DNA from: Chloroflexota bacterium
GTDB taxonomy: Bacteria; Chloroflexota; Dehalococcoidia; SM23-28-2; RBG-16-64-32
Assembly: GCA_022560365.1 (NCBI GenBank)
Contig: JADFTG010000021.1
Span: forward strand, 1-10,257
Reading direction: 5' to 3'
DNA length: 10,257 nucleotides
Shown here: positions 5,230 to 10,156 of the stretch, one piece after another
Layout: each line of letters starts with the position of its first letter
Position numbering within the stretch: position 1 is the first letter of the stretch
The notes under the pieces: model-generated
What the model was told of the DNA's origin: nothing
The model's database searches: none
The model's input: the letters and a program-made list of their open reading frames with translations, nothing else
Made by a program: the position numbers and the translations under genes

Positions 5230-6036
5230 ATGGCGCAACTGGACAGGACGGTCAGCCCCCCTCATAAGCTTGGATTCCTGCGCACTCTGCGTACCGACGC
5301 CTGGTGGTTCGAGCCGGTGCTCATCGCCGTTGGTCTCTCGGTCTTCCTCGGCTATCTGACTGTCAGCGCCTTTCTCGATGGTTGGGCCTACGAGATCGGG
5401 CCCTACCTGACGCCCGTGTTCGAGCCAAAGCTGGCCGGCTCGTATGATGCCTGGTACTTCTCTCCGGCGCTGCTCATCCTCTGGGTACCCGTAGGCTTCC
5501 GCGCGACGTGCTACTACTATCGCCGGGCATACTACCGTTCTTTCCTGCTGAGCCCGCCGGCCTGCTCCGTCGGCGACGCCGCGCCGAAATACGGCGGCGA
5601 GTCCGGCTTCCCGCTCGTGATGCAGAACCTGCACCGCTTCTTCATGTACGCCGCGCTCGTCTTCGTGGTGCTGCTCTGGATCGGGGCGATCCGCGCCTTC
5701 TACAACACGGAAGGCATCATCGACGGCGAGGTTGCGGAGACCGGCTGGGGCATCGGTCTCGGCTCGATCGTGCTGGTAATCAATGCGACGCTGCTGATGA
5801 TGTACTCGTTCAGCTGCCACTCCTTCCGTCACCTGGTCGGCGGCGGTCTCGACTGTTTCAGCTGCAGTCTGGTCAACCGGACGCGCAAGCGCATCTGGGA
5901 CCGCGTGTCGGCCTGGAACGAGTCCCACCGCACCTGGGCCTGGGCAAGCCTGATCTGGATCGTCTTCACTGACCTCTACATTCGCCTGGTCGCCAACGGT
6001 CACATCACGGATCCGAACACCTGGAGCGGGTTCTGA
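5230..6036 (+). CDS. sdhC: Succinate dehydrogenase membrane anchor subunit, Sdh1 (type F)-like
   Basis: This is the membrane subunit of complex II that passes electrons from SdhB to quinone. It is recognised mainly from position (directly before sdhA) and architecture, since the family is divergent. The protein is 268 aa, much longer than classical SdhC or SdhD (about 120 aa) but the size of the single-anchor mycobacterial Sdh1 subunit. Five hydrophobic segments are visible at about 29-48, 77-95, 136-157, 174-194 and 236-254. After the fourth, C196, H197, H201, C209 and C212 cluster in SFSCHSFRH and LDCFSC. In mycobacterial Sdh1 a Rieske-type [2Fe-2S] cluster is embedded in this subunit, so these are candidate ligands (inference). 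H135, at the start of helix 3, is conspicuous. The ATG has a GGAG Shine-Dalgarno. sdhA starts 3 bp after the stop. No separate SdhD is seen. Confidence 0.85.
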   Translation: MAQLDRTVSPPHKLGFLRTLRTDAWWFEPVLIAVGLSVFLGYLTVSAFLDGWAYEIGPYLTPVFEPKLAGSYDAWYFSPALLILWVPVGFRATCYYYRRAYYRSFLLSPPACSVGDAAPKYGGESGFPLVMQNLHRFFMYAALVFVVLLWIGAIRAFYNTEGIIDGEVAETGWGIGLGSIVLVINATLLMMYSFSCHSFRHLVGGGLDCFSCSLVNRTRKRIWDRVSAWNESHRTWAWASLIWIVFTDLYIRLVANGHITDPNTWSGF

Positions 6037-6039
6037 GCA

Positions 6040-7839
6040 GTGGCTGATATCGAAACGCACGAATACGACGTAGTCGTCATCGGCGCCGGCGGCGCTGGAT
6101 TGCGGGCCGCTATCGAAGCCTCGGCCATGGGCGCGCGCACCGCGCTTGTCTGCAAGTCGTTGCTGGGCAAGGCGCACACCGTGATGGCCGAGGGCGGCAT
6201 CGCAGCGGCGCTGGGCAACGTCTACAGCGAGGACAACTGGCAGGTTCACTTCCGCGACACGATGCGAGGCGGCAAGATGCTCGGCAACTGCCGCATGGCG
6301 CAGATCCACGCACAGGAGGCGCCGGCTCGCGTTCACGAGCTTGAATCGTGGGGAGCGCTGTTCGACCGCACGGACGACGGGCGCATCCTGCAGCGCGCGT
6401 TCGGCGGCCACCGCTACGACCGCCTGGCGCACGTCGGTGACCGCACCGGCCTGGAGATGATCCGCACGTTGCAGCAGCACGCCGTGCACAAGGGCATCGA
6501 CGTCCACATGGAGTGCACGATATCGCGACTGCTCAAGGACGGCGACCGCATCTCCGGCGCCGTCGGCTACTGGCGCGAGAGCGGCGACTACGTCGCCTTC
6601 AAGGCGAAGGCCGTCGTCCTGGCGACGGGCGGCACGGGTAAGGCGTTCCGGATCAACTCCAACTCGTGGGAGTACACCGGTGATGGGCACTCGCTCGCCT
6701 ACTGGGCAGGCGCTGAACTGATCGACATGGAGTTCATCCAGTTCCACCCGACGGGCATGGTCTGGCCGCCCAGCGTGCGTGGCATCCTGGTCACAGAGGG
6801 TGTGCGCGGCGACGGCGGGACGCTCACGAACTCCGAAGGTAAGCGCTTCATGTTCGAGTACATCAGCGACTACTTCCGCGCGGAGACGGCCGAGACCGAA
6901 GAAGAGGCCGATCGCTGGTACGACGACAAGCTCAACAACCGTCGCACGCCGGACCTGTTGCCGCGAGACGAGGTGGCGCGCGCGATCGTCGCGGAGGTGA
7001 AGGCTGGGCGCGGCAGCCCGCACGGCGGCGTCTTCCTCGATATCGCCTCGCGGCGGCCGGCGGACTACATCAAGCGCGCGCTGCCCAGCATGTACCATCA
7101 GTTCAAGCAGCTGGCCGACGTCGACATAACGGCCGCGGCGATGGAAGTTGGCCCGACGATGCATTACACGATGGGCGGCGTCCGCGTCGAGCCCGATACT
7201 GGCGCGGCCACGTTGCCCGGGCTCTTCGCCGCCGGCGAATGCGCTGGCGGCATGCACGGCGCCAACCGCCTCGGCGGCAACTCGCTCTCGGACCTGCTGG
7301 TGTTCGGTAGGCGGGCCGGGATGGGCGCCGCCGAATACGCCCTCGGCCTCGGCTCGCAGCCAGCGCTTACCGATGCCGATGTTTCCGCCGTCACCGCCGA
7401 GATGGACGCAGCCTTTAGCAGCGACGGCGACGAGAACCCGTACACAATCCAGTCGGATCTGCAGGACGCGATGCACACGCTCGTCGGCATTATCCGCACC
7501 GGCTCCGAGATTGAGGAAGCGCTCGGCAAGATCGCTGAGCTGAAGGAGCGCGCCGAGAGGGCCAGCGTCACCGGGAGCAAGGCGTACAATCCCGGCTGGC
7601 ACCTGGCGATGGACCTGCGCTCACTCCTGACCGTCTCGGAAGCGATAGCCCGGTCCGCGGCAGAGCGGACCGAGAGCCGCGGCGGCCACACACGCGACGA
7701 CTACCAGGAGACCGACCCCGAGTGGGGCAAGTGGAACCTCTCGCTGAGCCAGAACGCAGACGGCTCGATGAAGCTGGAGAAGACGCCGCTGCTGGAGATA
7801 CCGGCTGATCTGGCGGCGCTGATCGAGGAGGCTGGATAG
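6040..7839 (+). CDS. sdhA: Succinate dehydrogenase flavoprotein subunit
   Basis: SdhA oxidises succinate to fumarate with covalently bound FAD and hands electrons to SdhB. The protein is 599 aa, full length. The FAD-binding VVVIGAGGAGLRAAIE is at 11-26. H46 in KAHTVMAEGG is the residue expected to carry the FAD. Substrate-site residues follow: HPTGM (236-240), R309 in LPRDEVARAI (proton-shuttle Arg), H375 in MHYTMGG and R409 in GANRLGGNSL. The C-terminal WNLSLSQNADG and KLEKTPLLEIP are typical of SdhA. The GTG start is 3 bp after sdhC and leads directly into the FAD domain. The TAG stop lies inside the first 7-bp repeat of the cassette that separates this gene from sdhB, so the present stop is element-derived. 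No catalytic residue is missing. Confidence 0.97.
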   Translation: MADIETHEYDVVVIGAGGAGLRAAIEASAMGARTALVCKSLLGKAHTVMAEGGIAAALGNVYSEDNWQVHFRDTMRGGKMLGNCRMAQIHAQEAPARVHELESWGALFDRTDDGRILQRAFGGHRYDRLAHVGDRTGLEMIRTLQQHAVHKGIDVHMECTISRLLKDGDRISGAVGYWRESGDYVAFKAKAVVLATGGTGKAFRINSNSWEYTGDGHSLAYWAGAELIDMEFIQFHPTGMVWPPSVRGILVTEGVRGDGGTLTNSEGKRFMFEYISDYFRAETAETEEEADRWYDDKLNNRRTPDLLPRDEVARAIVAEVKAGRGSPHGGVFLDIASRRPADYIKRALPSMYHQFKQLADVDITAAAMEVGPTMHYTMGGVRVEPDTGAATLPGLFAAGECAGGMHGANRLGGNSLSDLLVFGRRAGMGAAEYALGLGSQPALTDADVSAVTAEMDAAFSSDGDENPYTIQSDLQDAMHTLVGIIRTGSEIEEALGKIAELKERAERASVTGSKAYNPGWHLAMDLRSLLTVSEAIARSAAERTESRGGHTRDDYQETDPEWGKWNLSLSQNADGSMKLEKTPLLEIPADLAALIEEAG

Positions 7840-7863
7840 GTGCAGGGTGTTAGGTGATAGGTG
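7836..7863 (+). repeat. Left heptamer array of the cassette (4 x NNAGGTG)
   Basis: Four phased 7-bp units of consensus NNAGGTG start at 7836, 7843, 7850 and 7857. Units 1 and 4 are identical (ATAGGTG); unit 2 is degenerate (CAGGGTG). The sdhA stop TAG (7837-7839) is inside unit 1. The AGGTGA at 7852-7857 also serves as a Shine-Dalgarno for the GTG at 7863. Bases 7846-7867 pair with 8257-8278 as an ungapped inverted repeat, 18 of 22 positions identical. Confidence 0.85.
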
Positions 7864-8243
7864 TGAGTGAGCGTGTCCGTTCGCACAGGGATCTCGTCGT
7901 GTGGAAGAAGGCGATGGATCTCGTCGATGCCGTCTACCGGCGCATGGCGAAGCTTCCGCAACGCGAGACATACGGTTTGTGGAGCCAGCTCACCCGCGCC
8001 GCCGTGTCTGTGCCGGCCAACATCGCCGAAGGGCGTGCTCGGTCGACTGGGAAAGACTTCGCCAACTTCTTGTCGATCGCGAGGTCATCTCTGATGGAGA
8101 TGGACACGCTAGTGACAGTGGCGAAGCGACAGCAGTACATCGACGGAGCAGCCGAAGCCCAGCTACTGAGCCAGATCGAGGAGGTCAGCAAGATGTTGAG
8201 CAGCCTCAGGCGCCGGATCGTTTCCAAAGGGGGCTCGTCATGA
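7863..8243 (+). CDS. Four-helix-bundle protein, 23S rRNA intervening-sequence (S23) family
   Basis: A small cytoplasmic helical protein of a family whose molecular function is unknown. Members form oligomeric four-helix bundles, and Avd of diversity-generating retroelements is a distant relative. The hallmarks are all here: RDLVVWKKAMDLVDAVY, LPQRETYGLWSQLTRAAVSV followed by PANIAEG, and DFANFLSIARSSLMEMDTL. The protein is 126 aa from the GTG at 7863, preferred because AGGTGA sits 5 bp upstream and MSERVRSHRDL is the usual N-terminus. A GTG three codons earlier (7854) is possible. The gene lies between sdhA and sdhB, bounded by inverted 7-bp repeats. Its stop overlaps the sdhB start (ATGA), and its last codons (SKGG) contain the sdhB Shine-Dalgarno. 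A role in succinate dehydrogenase is not implied. It is intact, so it is either recently acquired or maintained. Confidence 0.9.
   Translation: MSERVRSHRDLVVWKKAMDLVDAVYRRMAKLPQRETYGLWSQLTRAAVSVPANIAEGRARSTGKDFANFLSIARSSLMEMDTLVTVAKRQQYIDGAAEAQLLSQIEEVSKMLSSLRRRIVSKGGSS
8226..8233 (+). promoter_or_regulatory. Shine-Dalgarno of sdhB, inside the cassette gene
   Basis: AAAGGGGG lies 6 bp before the ATG at 8240 and is the only strong Shine-Dalgarno for sdhB. It is read as Lys-Gly-Gly near the C-terminus of the four-helix-bundle protein, so sdhB translation depends on cassette sequence. This site decides the sdhB start at 8240 over an in-frame GTG at 8288. Confidence 0.65.
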
Positions 8244-9028
8244 GCCGGGCTGACACCTCTCACCTATCAACTGGCACCAACCGCCAGGTGACGTTACAGG
8301 TGTTCCGCGGCGACGCCAACGGCGGCGAGTTCGTCGACTACACCGTCGAAATGGAAGAAGGGCAGGTCGTTCTCGATGTTGTGCTCACGGTGCAGGCGAC
8401 GCAGGCCGGCGATCTGGCGGTGCGCTGGAACTGCAAGGCCGGCAAGTGTGGCTCCTGCAGCGCCGAGGTCAACGGCACGCCCTGCCTAACGTGCATGACG
8501 CGCATGAACACGCTGGACATGAGCCAGCCGATCAGCGTGGCACCGATCAAGACGTTCCCACTGATCAAGGACCTGGTGACGGATGTCTCGTTCAACTACG
8601 AGGGGGCGAAGCAGATCCCGGCGTTCGCGCCGCGCGCGCCCGACGCCGACGACGGATCCTATCGCATGATGCAGCAGGACATCGAGCGCGGGCAGGAGTT
8701 CCGCAAGTGCATCGAGTGCTTCCTCTGCCAGGACGTCTGTCACGTCATCCGCGACCACCCGGAGAACAAGCCGAACTTCATGGGCCCGCGCCAGTTCGTG
8801 CGCCTGGCGGAGCTGGAGATGCATCCGCTGGACACGGCCGACCGGACGGAGTTCATCCGTAAGGCCGGCGGAATCGCCTATTGCAACATCACGAAGTGCT
8901 GCACCGAGGTCTGCCCGGAAAGCATCCACATCACGGACAACGCGATCATCCCGCTCAAGGAGCGCGTCGCGGACAAGTACTACGACCCGTTCCGCTGGAT
9001 CTTTGGCAAGCTGACCGGCCGCGATTAG
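8240..9028 (+). CDS. sdhB: Succinate dehydrogenase iron-sulfur subunit
   Basis: SdhB carries electrons from SdhA flavin to the membrane subunit through three iron-sulfur clusters. The protein is 262 aa. By alignment with E. coli SdhB, [2Fe-2S] ligands are C65, C70, C73 and C85. The [4Fe-4S] set is C157, C160, C163 and C225, and the [3Fe-4S] set is C167, C215 and C221. All ligand positions are filled. The start ATG at 8240 overlaps the cassette gene's stop and has AAAGGGGG 6 bp upstream. The open frame continues much further upstream, but only as a shadow of the four-helix-bundle gene. Residues 5-14 (DTSHLSTGTN) are encoded by the right heptamer array, so the first 16 or so residues are probably not ancestral. 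The conserved fold starts at VTLQVFRGD (17-25). An in-frame GTG at 8288 is an alternative start. Confidence 0.96.
   Translation: MSRADTSHLSTGTNRQVTLQVFRGDANGGEFVDYTVEMEEGQVVLDVVLTVQATQAGDLAVRWNCKAGKCGSCSAEVNGTPCLTCMTRMNTLDMSQPISVAPIKTFPLIKDLVTDVSFNYEGAKQIPAFAPRAPDADDGSYRMMQQDIERGQEFRKCIECFLCQDVCHVIRDHPENKPNFMGPRQFVRLAELEMHPLDTADRTEFIRKAGGIAYCNITKCCTEVCPESIHITDNAIIPLKERVADKYYDPFRWIFGKLTGRD
8254..8281 (+). repeat. Right heptamer array of the cassette (4 x CACCTNN, degenerate)
   Basis: Four phased 7-bp units start at 8254 (CACCTCT), 8261 (CACCTAT), 8268 (CAACTGG) and 8275 (CACCAAC). They are the reverse complement of the left array's unit. The second is identical to the complement of left units 1 and 4. 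Units 3 and 4 have diverged, as expected for sequence now translated as part of SdhB. Confidence 0.8.
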
Positions 9029-9069: not shown

Positions 9070-9078
9070 TGCTATCAT
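9070..9078 (+). promoter_or_regulatory. Extended -10 promoter of the amidohydrolase lipoprotein gene
   Basis: TGC-TATCAT is an extended -10 almost identical to the one before tlyA. Transcription would start about 9084-9086, ten or so bases before the ATG at 9095. The ATG at 9077 overlaps the -10 and would not be in the transcript, which supports 9095 as the start. No convincing -35 is seen at 16-18 bp. Confidence 0.55.
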
Positions 9079-9094
9079 GTGCGGGCCTGGTCCG

Positions 9095-10156
9095 ATGCGA
9101 ATACTCTACTGGCTCGTAGCTGCCGCTGTGGCCACCGTCATCGTCGCCTGCAGCGGTGACAGCGCGCCGACGTCCACGCCTGCGAAGACGCCGCGCTCCC
9201 TCACGCCAACGACGGTGGCAACGCCCAGCCCGACCCGTCCTCCACCGCTGGCGACGCCTGCGCCGCTTCCCGGCAGCCTCGCGATCGTAAACGCGCGAAT
9301 TCTCGACGGCACGGGTGCGCCAGCGATCGAGTCCGGATACGTGATCGTGCGGGACGGCTACATCGTCGAAGTGGGCGAGGGCGAGGGCGATCTGCCTCTG
9401 GACGCGCAGGTCATCGACGCTGACGGGCGGACGGTGATGCCGGGCCTGGGCGACGGTCACGTGCACACGACCCGGGCGTTCATAGTCAACACAGGGTATC
9501 TAGCGAGCTCTATCAACGAAAATGCGTACCTGCCGTTCCTCAGCGCCGGCCTCACCAACCTGCGCGACGTTGGTACAGCAACTGTCATACTAAAGGCGAT
9601 CAAGGGGCAGACTGACGTCCAGACGCGGCTGGGCAACGCGCCGCGTATCACCTGGGCGGGGCCGCTCATCACGGCGCCCGGCGGGTACCCGTTTACGGTC
9701 GAGCGGTATTCGGCGGGTGGCCAAGAGGTGACGTCGACCGATGAGGCGGTCGATCTCGTGGACGCTATGGCATCGAGCGGTGCCCGTGTGATCAAGCTTG
9801 CGCTTGAGCACGGCTATTACGGCGACGATGGCTGGGCGGTGCTCGACCTCGTGACGGTACGGGCGATCACCGAGGCGGCGCACGAGCGCGGCCTGCTGCC
9901 CCACCACCTGCTTGTCGATCCCCGTCACATGGATGCGCTGCGGCGTCTCCACTTCGAACGTCGCGCCTTCCAGCGGTTCGATCTCGACGAGGTGCGAGAA
10001 GCCGACGGTCAGCACCAGCGTGCTGCCGCGCAGCTTAAGAATCGCCGTGGGTGTCGGTGCCGGACCGCGTCGTCCCATCACTTACACTCCCAATCGTGTG
10101 CGCCGCGTCGAGTCGCCATGAATGCCCCGCAGCCCGGCTACCCCCCCCCTATGTAA
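9095..10156 (+). CDS. Amidohydrolase-family lipoprotein, 3' truncated by a chimeric junction
   Basis: The genuine part (residues 1-268, to base 9898) is the start of a secreted metal-dependent amidohydrolase. A lipoprotein signal peptide (MRILYWLVAAAVATVIVAC) has its lipobox ending at C19. A Thr/Pro-rich spacer (24-59) follows, then the beta-sandwich (LAIVNARILDGTGAP) and the metal motif GHVH (H122, H124) in MPGLGDGHVH. AGLTNLRDVGT (151-161) is family-typical, and K234 in VIKLALEHG is the candidate carboxylated lysine. The frame reaches AAHERGLL, just before the expected third metal-binding His, and then enters unrelated sequence. The tail to 10156 is antisense to an L6 fragment and a phage gene. 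The product would lack half the barrel and be inactive. Substrate is not predictable (prolidase- and imidazolonepropionase-like relatives exist). The start is ATG 9095 because an earlier ATG overlaps the promoter. Confidence 0.75.
   Translation: MRILYWLVAAAVATVIVACSGDSAPTSTPAKTPRSLTPTTVATPSPTRPPPLATPAPLPGSLAIVNARILDGTGAPAIESGYVIVRDGYIVEVGEGEGDLPLDAQVIDADGRTVMPGLGDGHVHTTRAFIVNTGYLASSINENAYLPFLSAGLTNLRDVGTATVILKAIKGQTDVQTRLGNAPRITWAGPLITAPGGYPFTVERYSAGGQEVTSTDEAVDLVDAMASSGARVIKLALEHGYYGDDGWAVLDLVTVRAITEAAHERGLLPHHLLVDPRHMDALRRLHFERRAFQRFDLDEVREADGQHQRAAAQLKNRRGCRCRTASSHHLHSQSCAPRRVAMNAPQPGYPPPM
9887..10029 (-). pseudogene. rplF: Ribosomal protein L6 internal fragment
   Basis: On the minus strand about 48 residues match the C-terminal domain of ribosomal protein L6: LVLTVGFSH, VEIEP, EGATFEVETP, RIHV and GIDKQVVGQQAA in the correct order and spacing. 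The fragment has neither the L6 N-domain nor the PYKGKGI end, which should follow about 10 residues later. It stops where the plus-strand amidohydrolase begins. On its other side it runs in frame into the first codons of a terminase gene. Two near-invariant prolines are leucine (SHPV to SHLV, PPEG to PLEG), each explicable by one C-to-T change. It is a displaced fragment, not a working gene. Confidence 0.75.
10024..10078 (-). pseudogene. Phage terminase small subunit (P27 family), N-terminal codons only
   Basis: The minus-strand ATG at 10078 opens with MGRRGPAPTPTAILKLRG, which resembles the conserved start of P27-type small terminase subunits, the DNA-recognition part of the phage packaging motor. 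A GGGAG Shine-Dalgarno (plus-strand CTCCC, 10087-10091) lies 8 bp upstream, so this is a real gene start. After about 18 residues the frame becomes ribosomal protein L6, so the rest of the terminase is missing. The match is short but distinctive; identification is from memory of the family. Confidence 0.6.

Follow-up and report, generated by a model that had tools for sequence, protein, structure and literature searches.

The question raised by this locus is whether a small gene situated between sdhA and sdhB belongs to the sdh operon, or whether it was carried there by a small mobile element. The locus lies in a stretch of 10,257 nucleotides (the window) from a Chloroflexota bacterium (GenBank assembly GCA_022560365.1, contig JADFTG010000021.1), and the gene, which encodes a four-helix-bundle protein of the S23/IVP family, is bounded by two arrays of tandem heptamers in inverted orientation. 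A first-pass annotation of the window, made without database searches, suggested that the family may travel as a small cassette recognized through heptamer ends. We compared the locus with S23 genes elsewhere, and our results support that interpretation in part. We think it probable, with moderate confidence, that the S23 gene and its two inverted arrays form one small mobile cassette with the arrays as its ends, and that gene-less derivatives of this cassette exist. The architecture, the matching of the ends, the association of repeat unit with protein, an empty site and the gene-less derivatives are each seen in comparisons of sequences; recognition of the ends, non-autonomy and movement are what we infer from them.

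An S23 gene between inverted heptamer arrays in an sdh operon

The S23 gene (7854..8243, forward strand) encodes 129 amino acids and is complete, as first annotated: its product matched PF05635 with an E value of 9.8e-36 over profile positions 1-105 of 106, and TIGR02436 with 117 bits against a cut-off of 24. It is the only gene in a cassette of ~0.44 kb. Upstream is the host gene sdhA (6040..7839, forward; NF005866, 1037.6 bits against a cut-off of 819), and downstream is sdhB (8240..9028, forward; NF009052, 426.1 bits against a cut-off of 256, with the match beginning at residue 15). The left array (7837..7864, forward), defined from the sequence and a repeat search, reads TAGGTGC AGGGTGT TAGGTGA TAGGTGT. 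It overlaps the sdhA stop codon (7837-7839) at its start, and the predicted GTG start of the S23 gene (7854) lies within it. Four NNAGGTG units had been noted here; there are four heptamers, but the second (AGGGTGT) deviates from the pattern. The right array (reverse strand, approximate ends 8252..8279), located by an inverted-repeat search, contains the four complementary and partly degenerate units that had been described, at 7-nt steps: CACCT at 8254 and at 8261, a decayed CAACT at 8268, and CACCA at 8275. The inverted repeat formed by 7846-7867 and 8257-8278 was confirmed as 18 identical positions of 22 nt (82%), and a longer version extends to 29 nt at 79%.

The insertion had been thought to leave the operon unbroken. 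It is unbroken but altered. The ATG of sdhB overlaps the S23 stop codon (ATGA), and the N-terminus of SdhB is translated from the right array: in three insert-bearing genomes SdhB starts inside the cassette and has ~14 extra residues from the array. In an SdhB alignment, the insert-bearing congeners aligned from residue 1-2 and the genome with an empty site from residue 15. At another locus (L243, 2440-2492) the CarA reading frame crosses the left array and acquires an array-encoded C-terminus, which mirrors the SdhB N-terminus of the window.

The period-7 scores of the window copy (L002) were 15/21 on the left and 14/21 on the right, and both congeners (L003 and L004) scored 18 and 16. The inverted-flank score of the window copy was 14, a value reached by 34 of 1500 mismatched left/right flank pairs (2.3%); the two congeners with S23 at sdhA-sdhB scored 15. 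Because of this chance level, the window copy alone is only suggestive, and the case rests on the family-wide tests described below.

The insertion site in related genomes

S23 lies between sdhA and sdhB in three of the four examined genomes of the genus (G000, G001 and G003). In the fourth (G002) the site is empty, and sdhA and sdhB abut without an insert. Two genomes of the same family (G005 and G009) also have sdhA-sdhB without an insert, and their S23 gene lies instead between the sdhC-like gene and sdhA. The proteins of these two genomes are 60% and 49% identical to the window protein, and their cassettes carry another unit, TAGTGGN. The corresponding junction is empty in the window genome, where the membrane-protein gene at the sdhC position (5230..6036, forward) has no Pfam match and is called sdhC-like from its position. 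According to the first-pass annotation, an old operon member would be indicated if all relatives had the gene between sdhA and sdhB without heptamer repeats, or if the genome had no other copy of the arrays. What was found is the empty site in G002, and AGGTG arrays without S23 on contigs 217, 97, 145 and 154 of the window genome.

The presence of the family is patchy. The window protein had matches in 21 of 61 relatives. PF05635, at a threshold of 1e-8, matched at least 82 of 301 genomes of the phylum, with up to 10-15 copies in some genomes among the matches listed; none of 14 well-known control genomes was among the matches listed.

Inverted arrays bound S23 genes at many loci

We examined the flanks of 139 fetched S23 loci from Chloroflexota, orthologues included, which represent part of the PF05635 matches. 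These remained from 171 loci after copies of the window and 30 loci fetched through sdhB were left out; one locus has a short right flank, leaving 138 for right-flank tests. A period of 7 reached at least 17/21 matches in 46 of 139 left flanks and 55 of 138 right flanks, compared to 5 of 267 distal control windows. Periods other than 7 reached this level in 0-8 flanks, and the values of 6 and 8 were from period 8, where real octamer arrays occur. Both sides were arrayed at 15/21 or more in 76 of the 139 loci, 66 of them with heptamers and 10 with octamers (L025, L116, L118, L126, L134, L138, L152, L154, L155 and L156). At the 66 heptamer loci, the left units and the reverse-complemented right units agreed at 5.55 of 7 positions, compared to 3.61 in the same orientation and to a mean of 3.67 (maximum 4.06) in 2000 shuffles. 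Inverted matching of at least 15 was present in 67 of 138 loci, versus 1-3 with shuffled partners.

One group of related cassettes differs in its surroundings: relative to L112, L139 and L168, the neighbor that matches at L159 is found on the other side and the other strand, which would fit an inversion of the cassette or of its surroundings.

The same architecture was found well outside the phylum. A set of named organisms, the best 80 of 586 relatives from a scan of genome contigs, includes records labelled Chloroflexi, Acidobacteria, Clostridia, Planctomycetes, Proteobacteria, Bacteroidota, candidate phyla, Nostoc, Methanophagales archaea and others. The inverted threshold was passed by 56 of the 80 loci, versus 0-3 in five shuffles. 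A period of 7 reached at least 16/21 in 44 of 79 left flanks and 46 of 80 right flanks, with 8 of 146 controls and 0-7 flanks for other periods.

The host junctions, checked with profile hidden Markov models (HMMs), are varied. S23 lies between carA and carB in Pseudoxanthomonas, nuoC and nuoD in Bosea, dnaK and dnaJ in Chitiniphilus, and again sdhA and sdhB in Lacinutrix and Capnocytophaga. It adjoins carB in Ramlibacter (the upstream gene was not run), and in a Chloroflexota genome it occupies the recG-coaD junction, identified by a RecG domain and a cytidylyltransferase-like protein.

S23 genes also occur on cyanobacterial plasmids, for which 6 of 24 records were examined; phage records had no S23 match. 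Three of the plasmid genes are in CRISPR operons (L469, L473 and L474), twice between cas6 and cas4 and once between cas10 and cmr3. Others lie antisense between nrdB and nrdA (Nostoc edaphicum) or among hypothetical genes. The period-7 scores (left/right) of the six loci were 19/21, 20/21, 19/10, 19/17, 21/21 and 9/10. The last is from Picosynechococcus, whose period-8 score was 14/17, and by eye the Anabaena locus has no clear array on the right side beside the gene. The legend of a figure in a CRISPR survey lists the 23S rRNA IVP among CRISPR-associated domains (PMC10910872), and insertion of S23 into cas operons may explain that listing.

The repeat unit varies between lineages and tends to follow the protein

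The unit differs among lineages, is matched from left to right, and is G-rich at the left end on the sense strand of the gene. A fixed heptamer as the end signal was therefore rejected, since units vary by lineage and some loci have octamers. The earlier proposal of a small cassette is supported by inverted arrays that bound S23 at many unrelated loci; the inverted layout recurs, and the unit itself is lineage-specific.

We compared units with proteins at 96 loci with a strong heptamer array, using pairs without a common flanking gene. Agreement at 6-7 of 7 positions rose with protein identity, from 3% of pairs below 40% to 4% at 40-50%, 12% at 50-60%, 24 of 46 pairs at 60-70% and 7 of 13 above 70%. 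For the 215 pairs with at least 50% protein identity, the mean unit agreement was 4.60, compared to 3.97 after permutation (maximum 4.18 of 2000). By this comparison, the type of end and the S23 protein arrive together at new sites. This association is explained by common descent of the cassette, and recognition of the unit by the protein is not thereby proven.

Variation within arrays was uneven. AG was present in 78% of units from 237 arrays (with each side of a locus counted), compared to 58% after shuffling the letters. In the 161 arrays with one AG, its G was mismatched 15 times, versus 62.5 expected under random rotation (minimum 37 in 5000). Plain slippage does not predict such uneven variation with an AG anchor. 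The share of mismatches falling in the best adjacent pair of positions was 0.536 (random 0.502, maximum 0.523) and, in a tighter set, 0.758 (random 0.648, maximum 0.687). A rule of five fixed and two free letters is modestly supported by these values; the AG anchor is the firmer result. We also considered that units may arise by copying of the target site. At three junctions the letters of the stop and start codons resemble the unit, but related units were found at unrelated sites too.

Arrays without an S23 gene

Arrays of the same kind occur without the gene. At recG-coaD, 30 of 60 matching loci were read, and among these only G122 has an S23 gene there. Read by eye, the sites of G389 and G394 contain inverted octamer-like arrays separated by a short spacer, that of G350 contains a long array, and those of three genomes contain remnants; several sites are empty. 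A different and longer repeat (gggcagacacataggt-like) occupies the recG-coaD gap in two genomes (L308 and L309). A gene-less element on contig 97 of the window genome (L346, 1550-1635) has unlike ends, AGGTGCG and CTGTCTC-like, and the CTGTCTC-like end is similar to the unit that accompanies S23 in the congener G002 (L018).

Pattern counts for AGGTG, AGTGG and GGGGACC, which are of overlapping matches and not of arrays, were compared among genomes. The reversed-pattern control was not neutral, because reversed AGGTGNN is GTGGANN, found in AGTGGA arrays, and reversed AGTGGNN is GGTGANN, found in AGGTGA arrays; its highest counts were 48 matches in G009, 65 in G049 and 32 in G403, with 0-6 in the GGGGACC test. 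Of the 61 relatives, 11 have AGGTG matches and 15 have AGTGG matches. G049, whose S23 gene (L007) has AGGTG, was at or near the top with 50 AGGTG matches, as were G009 and G005, whose S23 genes have AGTGG, with 97 and 48 AGTGG matches. Thiohalocapsa and Nostoc mirabile, each with S23 of a matching or near-matching unit, had 34 and 323 AGTGG matches, and nine other named genomes had 0-3. A dispersed octamer family (AAGACACG-like) was also seen in G009 (L409, L413, L422 and L423), with no S23 of that unit seen.

The arrangement was clearest in Pseudoxanthomonas wuyuanensis, which has three S23 genes, one of which, at carA-carB, has the unit GGGGACC. This pattern had 109 matches in that genome and none in 11 other S23-bearing genomes. 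The 100 of 109 matches listed form 40 arrays and include 11 plus-then-minus pairs within 150 bp, with spacers of 38-99 bp, and no minus-then-plus pairs. Five S23-less elements have interiors of 34-178 nt, with no similarity to one another or to the S23 cassette beyond short chance words when compared. Four of them lie at junctions that we take to be murG-murC, ddlB-ftsQ, pilT-pilU and flgH-flgI. Arrays of the same unit are thus found without the gene, either singly or in inverted pairs that enclose a short unrelated interior, and in this the ends resemble non-autonomous derivatives of the cassette.

Elsewhere in the window, near the contig end, an open reading frame (ORF) at 9077-10156, possibly frameshifted, has a sub-cut-off amidohydrolase match (28 bits against 29.7, over the first 25 of 472 positions).

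Alternative explanations

Several observations weigh against a mobile cassette with the arrays as its ends. No movement was seen at the junctions read, and by eye, against diverged empty sites, no target duplication was recognized at sdhA-sdhB, sdhC-sdhA or recG-coaD. The window protein matched only PF05635 in Pfam and no transposase or nuclease family; enzymes acting in trans were not searched. The inverted threshold was failed by 24 of the 80 named loci, many of the Chloroflexota loci are orthologous and so not independent, and arrays in the same orientation appear at a few loci (L098, L126, L130, L134 and L138). Array and gene do not always correspond. AGGTG has 39 matches in G002 and 31 in G006, but the one S23 gene known from each carries another unit; in Brevundimonas there are 41 matches to AGTGG, and none of its S23 genes has quite that unit. 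In 398 kb of G009, from contigs partly chosen for S23 and arrays, heptamer arrays numbered 16, octamer arrays 14 and hexamer arrays 15. Finally, 20-kb stretches away from known S23 genes held 20 heptamer arrays in 400 kb from 20 S23-rich genomes (in 7 of 20 stretches, none with S23) and 0 in 373 kb from 17 S23-free genomes (20 stretches), with 0-3 arrays of other periods in both groups, but the two groups differ in phylogeny and the comparison is therefore one of association only. G168 had 4 heptamer arrays in 400 kb, and two S23-free genomes had none in 400 kb.

It is possible, but seems unlikely, that the arrays are ordinary slippage-prone heptamers of the host, at which S23 lands by recombination, so that they are landing sites and not ends. 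In some genomes solo arrays far exceed S23 genes, or arrays occur without an S23 gene of that unit, and copy-number changes in 7-nt steps have been published (PMC4679880). Against this explanation stand ends that are inverted, matched from left to right and of fixed polarity, units that accompany the protein to sites with other flanks, and the AG anchor and uneven variation within arrays. The lack of arrays in the S23-free stretches points the same way, with phylogeny not controlled.

We consider it improbable that the arrays act in RNA, by pairing in the transcript and being cut by RNase III, which would make the cassette an intervening sequence of mRNA like those of 23S rRNA. The Coxiella intervening sequence, with heptamers beside its S23 ORF, is described as having a 28-bp terminal stem and as excised by RNase III in vitro (PMC4990558). 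Fully antisense placement is also rare: where both neighbors were called, 2 of 68 S23 genes in the named set and 6 of 127 in Chloroflexota were so placed, compared to 29 of 182 control genes; both neighbors were on the S23 strand for 42 of 68 and 77 of 127, compared to 98 of 182 controls. Yet an antisense gene does occur between nrdB and nrdA in Nostoc edaphicum, and the arms, read on the sense strand, had 65 G.U and 76 A.C mismatches in Chloroflexota and 38 and 56 in the named set. Because G.U is not in excess over A.C in either set, the mismatches give no indication that a sense RNA stem is under selection, and such selection is not supported.

The idea that S23 is an old member of the sdh operon, with arrays serving translational coupling of SdhB, draws on the left array, which contains the sdhA stop and the S23 start, on the overlap of the S23 stop with the sdhB start, and on the site common to three of the four examined genomes of the genus, but it is very improbable, and ancestral membership was rejected, given the empty site in G002, the different junction and unit of the G005 and G009 cassettes, and S23 at carA-carB, nuoC-nuoD, dnaK-dnaJ and recG-coaD.

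Relation to known elements

Among the closest known systems is the intervening sequence of 23S rRNA. In Coxiella burnetii it contains an S23 ORF, upstream tandem heptamers (GACAGAT) of strain-variable number, and complementary ends (PMC4990558). The window element likewise encodes an S23/IVP protein and has heptamers beside the ORF and complementary ends. In contrast, the rRNA intervening sequence lies in helix 45 and is excised by RNase III, whereas the window element lies between the protein genes sdhA and sdhB. In the available part of the Coxiella paper the heptamers are placed upstream of the ORF, with no generalization from them.

In its working the cassette is best read, by analogy, as resembling REPIN-RAYT systems, while enclosing no recognizable transposase. 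According to one report (PMC3116915), REPINs are dispersed extragenic inverted doublets with a short spacer and a genome-specific sequence common to the linked gene. The 11 P. wuyuanensis pairs are REPIN-like in this sense, with gene positions read for few of them. The REPIN-RAYT partner, however, is a tyrosine transposase (Y1/HUH), and here it is a four-helix bundle with no Y1/HUH match in Pfam; REPIN ends are single palindromes, whereas the S23 cassette ends in tandem 7- or 8-mers. Insertion sequences and miniature inverted-repeat transposable elements share the terminal inverted repeats; unlike them, the cassette has only the S23 gene inside, with enzymes acting in trans not searched. Avd of the diversity-generating retroelements belongs to a related protein family (PMC10053308), but the window protein, at 25.5 bits against model NF033474, is under the cut-off of 80 and is flanked by sdhA and sdhB.

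Heptanucleotide repeats are reported to be over-represented in bacterial genomes (PMC4679880, PMC4692102). Examples are TAACTGA arrays dispersed in Beggiatoaceae and cyanobacteria (PMC4679880), GGGAATC in Xanthomonas and GGGGA(C/T)T in Nostoc (PMC4692102), and elements with the unit GGGACCG in Geobacter metallireducens (PMC2700814), which resembles GGGGACC of Pseudoxanthomonas. Like the S23-linked arrays these are tandem, mostly intergenic and lineage-specific. In contrast, the available parts of these papers link them to no S23 or other gene and explain them as regulator sites, slippage or quadruplexes. In the open-access literature, outside of which are most subscription papers and all preprints, we found no paper linking S23 genes to heptamer arrays in general. 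Because the cassette lacks a defining feature of every known kind compared, we place it in a new category, though with one reservation: the plan of a small mobile element that has gene-less derivatives is a familiar one.

A possible mechanism and its implications

We propose that the cassette enters the gap between the stop codon of one gene and the start codon of the next, and that after entry it would mostly be inherited with the neighboring genes. The gene inside probably encodes the factor that recognizes the arrays. The S23 protein, as a ring-forming four-helix bundle, would bind AG-anchored heptamers at the DNA level and could recruit a cutting or copying enzyme supplied in trans. The S23 family forms pentamers, and two solved relatives (2gsc and 2rld) were each deposited with five chains; the ring is proposed because of these. 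TRAP is a ring that reads repeated AG triplets, and the proposed S23 ring would be like it.

A broader possibility, offered tentatively and perhaps wrong, is that S23 and the AG-anchored arrays constitute a single widespread selfish system, in which the S23 ring reads consecutive heptamers, lineage-specific recognition makes each family of arrays private, and S23-dependent copying scatters gene-less arrays. If true, this would explain the over-representation of heptamers among the simple repeats of many bacterial genomes, and the rRNA intervening sequences would become one particular form of that element. Three puzzles may have a single answer: the role of S23/IVP proteins, the origin of 23S rRNA intervening sequences, and heptanucleotide over-representation. 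If the cassette itself is as we propose, it would be a small mobile DNA whose enclosed gene is no recognizable transposase. Such DNA would occur across many bacterial phyla and on contigs with an archaeal label (Methanophagales), and it could insert into core-gene operons and leave them unbroken.

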